Below, in pieces: positions 20,533 to 23,035 of a DNA stretch of 64,000 nt. A program made the position numbers and the translations under genes. The stretch spans positions 1,121,001 to 1,185,000 of the forward strand of contig JAPWJY010000008.1 in the NCBI GenBank assembly GCA_028283765.1. The letters are read 5' to 3'. The DNA comes from Parvibaculaceae bacterium (GTDB taxonomy: Bacteria > Pseudomonadota > Alphaproteobacteria > Parvibaculales > Parvibaculaceae). Each line of letters begins with the position of its first letter. Position 1 is the stretch's first letter. A model generated the notes under the pieces. It saw only the letters and a list, made by a program, of their open reading frames with translations, made no database searches and was not told where the DNA came from.

Positions 20533-20725
20533 GCAATTTCTGCGGGAAGGCCAGAGTTAGAAAAGGCTTTTCTGTTGGCATCGACCCCCGGGAGGAGCCG
20601 CCCCGGGCGCCTGCCGTACCGTTTCATGCCGCCTTCCGGGTCAGATGTTATGGGGATCTGTAATTCTATCTAAAGTTTTTCATGTCATTTTCTTGCTTCA
20701 GTGTTTCTCACGAGGGAGCAAGAAT
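20533..20725 (+). other. Intergenic region opening a lower-GC island
   Basis: No gene seen. It contains CCCGGG direct/inverted copies (near 20587-20607) that can form a short hairpin without a T-run, then a T-rich stretch (20660-20700) with TTTTTCATGTCATTTTC, unlike the GC-rich surroundings. The T-rich stretch may carry the promoter of the following ORF. No good -35/-10 pair is evident. Confidence 0.4.
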
Positions 20726-21136
20726 ATGCAGGATATTAAACATCTGACTTCGGCTTCTTTCCATTGCGGCATTCTTCAGCAGCAACAAGAGGAATTTTCT
20801 CCCGTACATCAACAGCGTACCCAGAATAAACCGGAAGCGTCTGTCACACGGTTTGATGAGGACAAAAAGCTGCGCCTCGAAGCAATGACGCAATTCGATG
20901 AGGCCTCAAGCGCGGAAAGCGACAATACTGCAAACCGGACACGCAGAGCGGTAAAGACTGCCTCCGGACCGGCAGTTCATTCCGTTTCGGCAAGTCAGGA
21001 CGTTGAAGTGAGAGCCATGACGGATAGTGCGCCAGGAGGGGGCGTTGGAGCGATTATTTCCAAATTCATTGAATCCCTCCAGAATATCATGGGTCAGGAA
21101 GAATTCATGATAGCGACGATGACGAAGAGGAAATGA
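20726..21136 (+). CDS. Orphan hypothetical protein, 136 aa
   Basis: Not recognised. The ATG at 20726 has GAGGGAG six bases upstream, a convincing ribosome binding site. The longer reading from 20645 lacks one. The N-terminal ~110 residues are hydrophilic and Gln/Ser/Glu-rich, probably disordered. The C terminus has a PGGGVGAI break followed by an amphipathic helix (IISKFIESLQNIM) and a basic tail, which recalls a leader plus membrane-active peptide, though this is conjecture. Codon use is visibly less GC-biased than in neighbours, suggesting transfer. It may be a real small gene, a toxin-like peptide or a decayed remnant. Confidence 0.5.
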   Translation: MQDIKHLTSASFHCGILQQQQEEFSPVHQQRTQNKPEASVTRFDEDKKLRLEAMTQFDEASSAESDNTANRTRRAVKTASGPAVHSVSASQDVEVRAMTDSAPGGGVGAIISKFIESLQNIMGQEEFMIATMTKRK

Positions 21137-21193
21137 ATTACAGATCGTCATATGTCGCGGCAGGTGCGTGACAGGGGCTCCTGAAAGGGAAAA

Positions 21194-21229
21194 GGCCGCT
21201 GTACCAAGGGTGCAACCCGTACAGCGGCC
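21194..21229 (-). terminator. Rho-independent terminator on the minus strand
   Basis: GGCCGCTGTAC (21194-21204) and GTACAGCGGCC (21219-21229) form a perfect 11-bp stem. Read on the minus strand it is followed by TTTTCCCTTT. It would end a minus-strand transcript coming from the small ORF at 21446 or from yihY. Confidence 0.75.
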
Positions 21230-21250
21230 AGTTCAGAACGATCAGCAACG

Positions 21251-21301
21251 CGGCTTCTTGTGATTGTTCCCGGGGCCTTTTTCAGGCCCATCATGAAGCC
21301 G
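21251..21301 (-). other. Nested hairpins downstream of the tiny ORF
   Basis: CGGCTTC (21251-21257) and GAAGCCG (21295-21301) can enclose an inner stem GGGCCT/AGGCCC. With the terminator at 21194 they make the ~110 bases after the tiny ORF highly structured. This might be a small RNA or an mRNA 3' leader. Confidence 0.45.
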
Positions 21302-21338
21302 CCCCGTTTACAGCCAAGCAGTTACTTACGTGAATAGG

Positions 21339-21446
21339 TCAGGCAGAAAGGTCCCCTGAAGTGTCCGACCTTACCTGCTTCGCCCCATCCTCCGTCATAA
21401 ACGGCACCTCGGCGATAGCAAACGGTGTCACCAAACCGTTAGACAT
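21339..21446 (-). CDS. Tiny ORF, 35 aa, behind a near-perfect Shine-Dalgarno
   Basis: On the minus strand AAAGGAGGTGA sits 5 bases before ATG at 21446, the strongest ribosome binding site in the window. The ORF encodes 35 residues beginning MSNGLVTPFAIAEVPF and stops at 21339. There is no Cys and no recognisable domain. Third-position GC is moderate (about two thirds by count). A different minus frame through the same DNA (about 21325-21441, no start codon, stop at 21325) reads a Gly- and aromatic-rich stretch such as GAVYDGGWGEAGKV. A one-base indel near the start would join it to the same Shine-Dalgarno. Which frame is used cannot be decided here. Confidence 0.45.
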   Translation of the reverse strand: MSNGLVTPFAIAEVPFMTEDGAKQVRSDTSGDLSA

Positions 21447-21533
21447 CGGATCACCTCCTTTCAAGTTGTTGCAGCCAGAACTGAAGCCTGCGGTGAGTCC
21501 GGCCCGGCGTCAACAAGGGGCTGTAGGAGAAAG

Positions 21534-21670: not shown

Positions 21671-23035
21671 TTATGCTCTTTGTGAGGATTGTCCGGCCGG
21701 CTCGTCGCGCTGGTCCGCTTCCAGCAGGTCGGCAAAGGAAATATCGCCCAGCCGTTTGCGCTCTTCGGCTGCGATATGTTGGAAAAGCTCTTCGATGGCC
21801 GGGTTATGGGCCAGCCTGTTTTCAGGCAGAGCGCGCTCTGCGCCTTCCTGGCGGATGGCCTGAATGGCGTCGCCGATACTGGTCTGGCTGGCGGCCCGGC
21901 TCGGCAGGTAGCGGCCTGCGGGCGCTTCGGCGCGGGCGATCAGATGGGCGCTCAGAAATGCCGCCAGAATGACCTCCATCGCCTCGACAGGCGCGAGCAG
22001 GCGGGAGGAGAGGTCTTCCTCCGTCAGAGGACCTTCGCCGCGCTCATAGGCCTCATGGATGAGGAGCAGCGCATGGGTGCCGATCCGCTCCATCTGCTGG
22101 GGCGAAAGCTCGACCACGCCCGCGACCGGCGACAGGTGCTTGCGGTTCTGAAAATAGAAGGACACCGAGCAGCCGACCAGAAGGATCAGCCAGCCGACAT
22201 AGAGCCAGATCATGAAGAAGAAGAGCGCCGCAAACGCGGAATAGATCACCGCATAGCTGGTGGAGTTGGCAACGAAGCTGGCAAAGCCCCAGCCGGTGAT
22301 GGTCCACAATATGCCTGCGACTGTAGCGCCCAGAAAGGCCGATGAAGTTCTGACCCGTGTATTGGGGACAAATTTATAAAGTGCCGCGAAGGCGAGAATG
22401 GCAATCGCATAGGGCAGATAGCGGCTCAATTCCCGCGAGAAGCTCTTGATGGGTGCGGGGCCGAGGCCGGTGATGGAAAGAGCGCTCGTGATGAAACTGG
22501 CGATCACCCCGATCGACATCAGCAGGAACAGGGGCCCGGCCACGCCGAAGCTCACGAAGTCGCGCAACTGGCGGATGATCGAGCGTGAATTGCGCGCGCG
22601 CCAGATGGTGTTGAACGATTCCTCGATCTTCATCACCATCGAGATGACGGTATAGATGAGAAACGCAAAGCCGACCGTGCCGAGGACGCTGGAGTTGACG
22701 CGCTCGACGAAGCGCATGGTCGTCTGGGTTATTTCGATCCCCTGATCTCCAAGAGGAGAGAGGAATTCGAGCATGAAGCGCTGAAGATAGACGTGATAGC
22801 CGACCATGCGGAAAACCGCGAAGGCCACGGCGATGGCGGGCACGAAGGAAAGCAGAGTGGTGTAGACGAGGCTGACGGCGCGCAGCCCCAGCCGTCCTTC
22901 AATCAGATCCCGGGTAATGACCCAGATGATCCGGAGTGTTTCGACAAGGGCGGCCCGGCCACGGGCCATGCCCTCCAGGGGTGTTTCCCAGACGAAGCTG
23001 TAGAAATGGCGGATCAGATTGAACGAGACTCTCAT
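21671..23035 (-). CDS. YihY/virulence factor BrkB family membrane protein
   Basis: A 454-aa inner-membrane protein. The YihY/BrkB core (residues ~40-320) holds about six hydrophobic spans, including TTLLSFVPAIAVAFAVF, FLIYTVISMVMKIEESFNTIWRA and LYVGWLILLVGCSVSFYF. The ESFNxIWRA motif is diagnostic. A ~130-residue hydrophilic cytoplasmic tail follows. Function is unresolved in the family (an RNase BN assignment was withdrawn; a transporter role is suspected). It is monocistronic on the minus strand, with a weak terminator downstream. Confidence 0.9.
   Translation of the reverse strand: MRVSFNLIRHFYSFVWETPLEGMARGRAALVETLRIIWVITRDLIEGRLGLRAVSLVYTTLLSFVPAIAVAFAVFRMVGYHVYLQRFMLEFLSPLGDQGIEITQTTMRFVERVNSSVLGTVGFAFLIYTVISMVMKIEESFNTIWRARNSRSIIRQLRDFVSFGVAGPLFLLMSIGVIASFITSALSITGLGPAPIKSFSRELSRYLPYAIAILAFAALYKFVPNTRVRTSSAFLGATVAGILWTITGWGFASFVANSTSYAVIYSAFAALFFFMIWLYVGWLILLVGCSVSFYFQNRKHLSPVAGVVELSPQQMERIGTHALLLIHEAYERGEGPLTEEDLSSRLLAPVEAMEVILAAFLSAHLIARAEAPAGRYLPSRAASQTSIGDAIQAIRQEGAERALPENRLAHNPAIEELFQHIAAEERKRLGDISFADLLEADQRDEPAGQSSQRA

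Follow-up and report, generated by a model that had tools for sequence, protein, structure and literature searches.

An extended Shine-Dalgarno sequence and a short open reading frame in a divergent relative of the alphaproteobacterial CC2171 RNA

In a stretch of 64,000 nt of Parvibaculaceae DNA (contig JAPWJY010000008.1, positions 1,121,001 to 1,185,000; hereafter the window, whose numbering is used throughout), a frame of 35 codons on the minus strand is preceded by an exceptionally long Shine-Dalgarno (SD) sequence and followed by hairpins and a terminator, which raises the question of what so strong a ribosome binding site is for. A sequence-only reading of this DNA had suggested a small-protein gene, a dual-function RNA or a recently frameshifted gene. 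The observation is more general than a single window, and concerns an RNA family of many Alphaproteobacteria. Since only 24.6% of Caulobacter coding sequences have an SD, as stated in the available portion of PMC4117421, the conservation of a near-perfect SD in so many members of this class needs explaining. The family itself is known; the extended SD, together with an ORF that is kept in length and free of content, is the part deserving work. As a whole, the locus is best explained as a small RNA gene, autonomous and about 290 nt long, whose RNA acts by way of the ribosome, a reading to which we assign a probability of about 0.5.

All parts of the element lie on the minus strand. A probable −35 hexamer, TTGACG (21508..21513), was read by eye 17 nt upstream of a probable −10 hexamer, CAGGCT (21485..21490), and similar hexamers at the same spacing were seen by eye in the window family and in several Rhodobacterales. 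A generic sigma-70 scan found no promoter at the element, and a tRNA/tmRNA scan returned none. From the sequence we infer that the transcript starts near 21477. The short 5′ leader (21462..21477), with a CAAC motif (GCAACAACTTG), ends before the extended SD, AAAGGAGGTGATCC (21461-21448), and the ATG start codon (21446-21444) lies one base (G) 3′ of this 14-mer. The ORF, MSNGLVTPFAIAEVPFMTEDGAKQVRSDTSGDLSA (21446-21339), has Ser at codon 2 and closes with a TGA stop at 21339.

Since the window genome's own 16S gene ends in GGATCACCTCCTTT, the match of the SD to the 16S rRNA 3′ tail is complete over 14 bases, and base 15 (G) of the element can add one G.U pair. The near-perfect SD noticed earlier upstream of the 35-codon frame is accordingly a 14/14 complement of the genome's own 16S 3′ end; the 5-base spacer then given for it needs correcting, the gap from AAAGGAGGTGA to the ATG being 4 bases. 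The pairing energy of the SD with the tail was computed here as −26.0 kcal/mol. Among the 48 ORFs of at least 150 codons in the window, each taken with its most generous start, the strongest SD reached −13.1 kcal/mol and the median −8.6 kcal/mol, so that within this window-only comparison the element has the one exceptional SD, far beyond those of other genes. The lowest energy among 10,000 random 20-mers was −19.6 kcal/mol. Genome-wide, the 14-mer of the element is the only exact copy, since the one further exact site belongs to the 16S gene, as the complementary strand of its 3′ end.

The element is very probably related to CC2171 (Rfam RF01867), an sRNA of Caulobacter. Positions 1-159 of the RF01867 model aligned to 21470-21273 with SD and start codon in register, at 21.7 bits (E 0.026) against a curated cut-off of 75; in this alignment the terminal hairpin of the model falls on an inner hairpin and so misses the real terminator, and most of the closing stem is aligned to gaps. 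A search of the window with Rfam at the gathering score gave no matches, and a strict-filter search of the window's genome did not find its own element, the sub-threshold match of 21.7 bits being the sole one. Since this score is far below the cut-off and the element was unreported in the strict genome-wide search, it is a divergent relative of RF01867 and not a curated member. Both RNAs appear to share one order of parts, namely leader, AAAGGAGGUGAUCC, start codon, UCU, closing stem and terminal hairpin, and the window element, in the manner of an RF01867-type RNA, stands alone as a gene with a terminator; it differs in its longer inner part and in an ORF of 35 codons, compared with 18-26 codons in most model matches. 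The gap in score is bridged by three genomes of the same family, which the model matched at E values per genome of 2.5e-8 (G006), 5.6e-6 (G002) and 3.1e-4 (G005).

Across the class, the RF01867 cut-off was reached by 5 of the 18 related loci submitted and in 13 of 385 alphaproteobacterial genomes. At E≤0.01 per genome, 95 of these 385 genomes matched, in a search that gave 107 matches, about four genomes being expected by chance. At 1e-4, 77 of 398 genomes in a phylum sample matched, and all 77 were Alphaproteobacteria, in a listing that does not give the share of the 398 from outside the class. The 14 control genomes yielded matches in Caulobacter and in Deinobacterium, from outside the class, at 0.01, and in Caulobacter alone at 1e-4; the Deinobacterium match is probably due to chance. 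When 61 relatives were searched at the DNA level, 36 matched, of which 34 fell among the 37 same-family genomes (own genome included), and in several genomes the match was limited to the region of SD and start. A search for the exact pattern, the 14-mer plus RRTG with one genome per species, returned at least 116 stretches; among the matches listed, 101 were in Alphaproteobacteria, 11 in other classes look unrelated, and four without a class in the table carry elements of the family type. In the literature searched, we found no function reported for CC2171/RF01867. Just two sources there name it as an RNA, the Rfam 15 paper and a Mesorhizobium sRNA list, and their available passages on CC2171 mention neither an SD nor an ORF.

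Invariance of the SD in sets selected with the exact pattern holds by construction, and only the model matches, for which the SD need not be exact, test its conservation. The SD was read in 69 of the 107 RF01867 matches, comprising the best 30 and then hand-picked ones, at first mostly without the exact pattern and later mostly with it; it was present in 67 and absent from two. Perfect in 44 of the 67, it was altered in 18 by A→G or C→U substitutions alone, all compatible with a G.U pair to the tail, and included a pair-breaking change in five, so that pairing with the tail was fully kept in 62, although the share of perfect SDs is not a random-sample figure, since the matches beyond the best 30 were hand-picked. 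Counted as substitutions, 21 keep the pairing and seven break it. In the 30 matches with long flanks the SD is at the place given by the model, at a distance of 7-9 bases from where the model match starts. A single base separates the 14-mer from the start codon in 66 of the 67, and in the remaining one the start codon is one base closer. Here, as for the stop positions and stem pairs below, the counts are of sequences and not of independent events. Judged from these alignments, the SD is conserved as a pairing and not merely as letters. Two genomes each had two model matches at E≤1e-4: in one (G047) both carry the SD (L216, L029), giving two divergent copies, and in the other (G311) the second is without it (9 of 14 bases) and may be a chance match.

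The frame behind the SD is held to a narrow range of lengths. An in-frame ORF of 14-36 codons was found in 74 of 77 representatives (<65% identity), compared with 25 and 16 in the other two frames. To obtain the representative set, 21 loci had been dropped for a short flank or as duplicates, and a filter had removed seven more; it was built on a codon 2 that starts with TC, or on a leader of CAAC type, and limited the ORF to 45 and 60 codons. Among the seven, L173 and L184 are alphaproteobacterial, with ORFs of 39 and 57 codons. Since ORF limits were applied, this filter touches ORF length. The model matches bypass it, and in that set, which was not chosen on the ORF, 66 of the 67 SD-bearing matches have an ORF of 14-36 codons. 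The tests of ORF length, SD energy and promoter, and own versus foreign pairing were made without six loci from outside the Alphaproteobacteria (L066, L079, L140, L141, L153 and L156). The stop stands at codon 19 in 23 of 23 sequences of a Rhodobacterales-type clade (TAG 13, TGA 5, TAA 5) and in 25 of 28 of a Sphingomonadales-type clade (TAA 13, TGA 12), so that the stop codon itself varies, and codon 2 is TCN in 64 of the 67 SD-bearing matches, keeping Ser. Behind the same SD, L136, L170 and L227 have 55-59 codons, which by eye resemble a small exported protein with a signal peptide, and L099 and L184 are similar; in such lineages the ORF may have been co-opted.

The full-length RNA of the window element is predicted to fold back on this ORF. 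The 291-nt fold had a z score of −4.63, and none of 200 shuffles folded as well. In the predicted closing stem, P1, codons 3-7 (AACGGT...GGTGAC, 21427..21440) pair with GTTGCTGATCGTT (21237..21249), directly before the terminator, with pair probabilities of 0.24-0.58, and in P2 codons 8-10 (CCGTTTGC, 21418..21425) pair with GTAAACGG (21304..21311) with probabilities of 0.96-0.98. The intrinsic terminator (21229-21190) consists of an 11-bp stem (GGCCGCTGTAC/GTACAGCGGCC, 21229-21219 / 21204-21194) with a small inner hairpin, followed by TTTT at 21193-21190. The hairpins and 11-bp terminator of the sequence-only reading are borne out by this stem and by the long-range fold. Six core pairs of P1 are standard in 25 of 25 family members, its outer pair being U.G in 20, U-A in four and C-G in one; of the eight pairs of P2, six are kept in all 25, one in 24 and one in 20. 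RNAalifold, run on 22 sequences, found 17 of 55 pairs changed on both sides, the terminator helix among those with such changes, and preferred a local hairpin for the first strand. This strand may therefore pair in either of two ways.

Across the class, ORF starts form better pairings with their own 3′ regions than with foreign ones (z −4.8, 0/10,000, without terminator calls). Control segments likewise favour their own 3′ regions, clearly for ORF nt 22-39 (z −5.7) and weakly for nt 40-57 (z −2.0), and the single ranks of the ORF starts are modest (≤0.05 in 5 of 77, ≤0.10 in 15 of 77). A first test of the closing stem, which relied on automatic terminator calls obtained in 126 of 163 elements, gave a rank below 0.05 in 14 of 42 representatives. 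Since single ranks are modest and a control segment is significant, the claim made here is of a fold involving the ORF and not of a stem unique to the start. By prediction, then, complementarity between the 3′ part and the ORF allows the full-length RNA to close its start region by folding. The SD itself may be paired in one clade: in the Rhodobacterales type a [CT]CTCC core is present in the 3′ part of 23 of 23 elements (CACCTCC in 7 of 23), and 21 of 23 predicted folds pair it with the core of the SD. Pairing of the SD with its own 3′ region lay below the 5% level of shuffles in 9 of 23 elements of this type and in 12 of 140 elsewhere, and a CCTCC motif that could cage the SD was found in 0 of 25 members of the window family. 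The CACCTCC-like stretches in Rhodobacterales-type 3′ parts (e.g. L077, L051, L058) resemble the 16S tail itself.

A frame kept in place and length, with Ser retained at codon 2 and, in a few lineages, extended into a longer signal-peptide-like ORF, might simply be a small-protein gene with an unusually strong SD, as the sequence-only reading had proposed. The check suggested there, conservation of each frame with its synonymous bias, was run as dN/dS. In the window family (21 distinct 36-codon sequences, the window itself excluded) the ratio was 0.70 in the ORF frame against 1.01 (+1) and 0.85 (+2), which leaves room for weak constraint on the peptide. The ORF frame had no such advantage in three other clades, with 1.27 in the Sphingomonadales type (+1 0.71, +2 0.54; 24 sequences), 0.77 in the Rhodobacterales type (+1 0.61, +2 0.71; 24 sequences, including L158, a same-length element from a Methylovirgula record of another order) and 1.11 in the Hyphomicrobiales type (+1 0.99, +2 0.74; 12 sequences). 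Substitutions are spread about evenly over the codon positions, and the peptides of different orders have little in common beyond their first residues. On these comparisons the peptide appears to be under little or no protein-level constraint, and the small-protein gene is very unlikely. Of the dual-function RNA, the RNA half stands, supported by the divergent Rfam sRNA relative, the element's own terminator and the lack of a neighbour common to most relatives; a functional peptide is not supported, there being no clear protein selection in any of the four clades. The second, Gly- and aromatic-rich frame without a start is indeed present in the window. By a count made by eye, it is internally stopped in 8 of 25 family members, the window included, and the 35-37-codon frame is open in all 25, so that the recently frameshifted gene was rejected. 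Equally, SD, short ORF, terminator and drawable alternative pairings could make up a leader-peptide attenuator controlling a downstream gene, and we consider this extremely improbable: the next long ORF downstream (20645-21136, plus strand, 163 codons, no Pfam match at 0.001) is convergent with the RNA gene, and the downstream genes vary in kind and strand between loci. With no conserved regulated gene downstream, the element was rejected as a leader. Since the peptide is barely constrained and the length of the ORF is nevertheless held, initiation and early termination, rather than the product, seem to be selected; the short ORF is quite probably translated without its product being needed.

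Two further explanations dispense with the peptide as well. The RNA could be a trans-acting base-pairing sRNA whose 3′ half, or whose GGAGG-rich region, pairs with mRNAs or acts as a sponge for CUCC-rich sRNAs, translation of the ORF only tuning its stability. Rfam files RF01867 as an sRNA, and GGAGG could pair with motifs of the UUUCCUCCCU type; in Caulobacter, the available text of PMC12559287 describes CrfA, a sponge RNA acting against sRNAs that carry the motif UUUCCUCCCU. Such a sponge would need only GGAGG(AAA), however, which leaves unexplained the conservation of TGATCC with changes that mostly keep a G.U pair to 16S, as well as the kept start codon and ORF length, so that we regard this explanation as doubtful. 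The RNA might instead serve maturation, quality control or subunit storage by pairing with the 3′ end of 16S, the ORF being secondary. Complementarity to the tail is strongly constrained and reaches the start codon, and in 21 of 67 model matches the SD is followed by AGTG, of which the next two bases can also pair (with the 16S of the window genome). The start codon one base behind the 14-mer in all SD-bearing matches read but one, together with the kept stop, points instead to real initiation and termination, and this explanation is unlikely.

For the small RNA gene preferred here, we infer an action by way of the ribosome and not of a peptide. Its extended SD would capture 30S subunits with a free anti-SD, and the 3′ cage would set how readily a captured subunit goes on to initiate; a single short round of translation might then open the cage, refolding or exposing the 3′ half. 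In this way the RNA would bait or sense 30S subunits that are free or of special composition, with effects on its own 3′ half or on the pool of subunits. Since the product is dispensable as far as the sequence tells, one expects the read-out to lie in the RNA or in the captured subunit. Sensing or baiting of ribosomes is a possible function, held at somewhat less than even odds. Counting against capture of ribosomes are the longer signal-peptide-like ORFs of a few lineages and a report of ribosome profiling in Caulobacter that ncRNA regions are not translated, a general statement that in the available text does not name CC2171 (PMC4117421). The wider proposal, that Alphaproteobacteria have a dedicated ribosome-status RNA translated for the act of translation alone, in which the extended SD reads 30S subunits with a free anti-SD and the 3′ cage changes the fate of the RNA or the pool of subunits, is put forward more tentatively still.

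Several known systems share features with the element. In type I toxin mRNAs such as hok and tisB the translation start is shut off by the 3′ part of the folded full-length transcript; the window RNA is like them in a predicted 3′ part closing the start and unlike them in having no conserved peptide. The closest circuit that has been worked out is rpsU of Flavobacteriales, according to the available passages of PMC9976891 typically the one gene per genome whose SD reaches −14 to −21 kcal/mol, and a gene that ribosomes without bS21 translate preferentially. Autoregulated rpsU and the window element are alike in being a single locus with an exceptional SD. They differ in that the pairing of the window RNA amounts to −26 kcal/mol (our calculation) and the RNA is structured and terminated, and in that the rpsU ORF encodes ribosomal protein bS21 (PMC9976891, same passages), whereas the ORF in the window has no constrained product. 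No ribosomal protein feeding back was found here, the short peptide not being conserved between clades; and the reading of free-anti-SD ribosomes, which the SD performs in rpsU, is for the window RNA only proposed. The dual-function trp attenuator RNA of Sinorhizobium, rnTrpL, is likewise a small RNA with a short ORF, but as described in the available part of PMC10117765 its peptide or downstream operon has a function, neither of which is supported for the window RNA. A family filed as non-coding sRNA appears to be built around an exceptionally strong SD and a frame kept for its length. Should it prove to sense or bait free 30S subunits, it would gauge translation capacity at the level of RNA and, next to rpsU in Bacteroidota, be a second case in which extended SDs are put to use independently, forming an RNA-only counterpart of the rpsU circuit.

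Signals upstream of the SD recur across the 146 representatives. TTGAC occurs upstream in 33 of them (4.3 in shuffles), and CAAC, CAAA or TAAC within 20 nt before the SD in 129 (34.7 in shuffles), a motif for which the member filter had partly selected. In the window, a GANTC site (GACTC, 21495-21499) lies inside the spacer between −35 and −10. GANTC, the CcrM methylation site, was present between −60 and −20 in 38 of the 146 representatives compared with 18 in shuffles; since seven control palindromes ranged from 6 to 36, this excess is suggestive only, and if meaningful it would hint at cell-cycle control via DNA methylation.

The surroundings of the element differ between loci. With up to two flanking ORFs per side considered at 146 loci (L051-L196), no neighbour was common to most loci, and the neighbour clusters examined, all smaller than the largest one of 27 ORFs, are order-bound or nearly so: a Vut_1 transporter lies upstream at 16 loci (Rhodobacterales and two unplaced), and a cluster of 20 stays within Sphingomonadales. 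Upstream of the window element, 21671-23035 on the minus strand encodes a BrkB-family membrane protein, with a C-terminal stretch that is Rrf2-like below the Pfam cut-off (25.5 bits vs 30), and this BrkB-family gene recurs in two relatives. A gene with an RF-1 domain (Pfam PF00472 for the L058 copy), resembling the ribosome-rescue hydrolase ArfB, lies within two ORFs of the element at seven loci, five in Rhodobacterales, one unplaced and one in Hyphomonadales (L058, L065, L085, L095, L122, L131 and L108).
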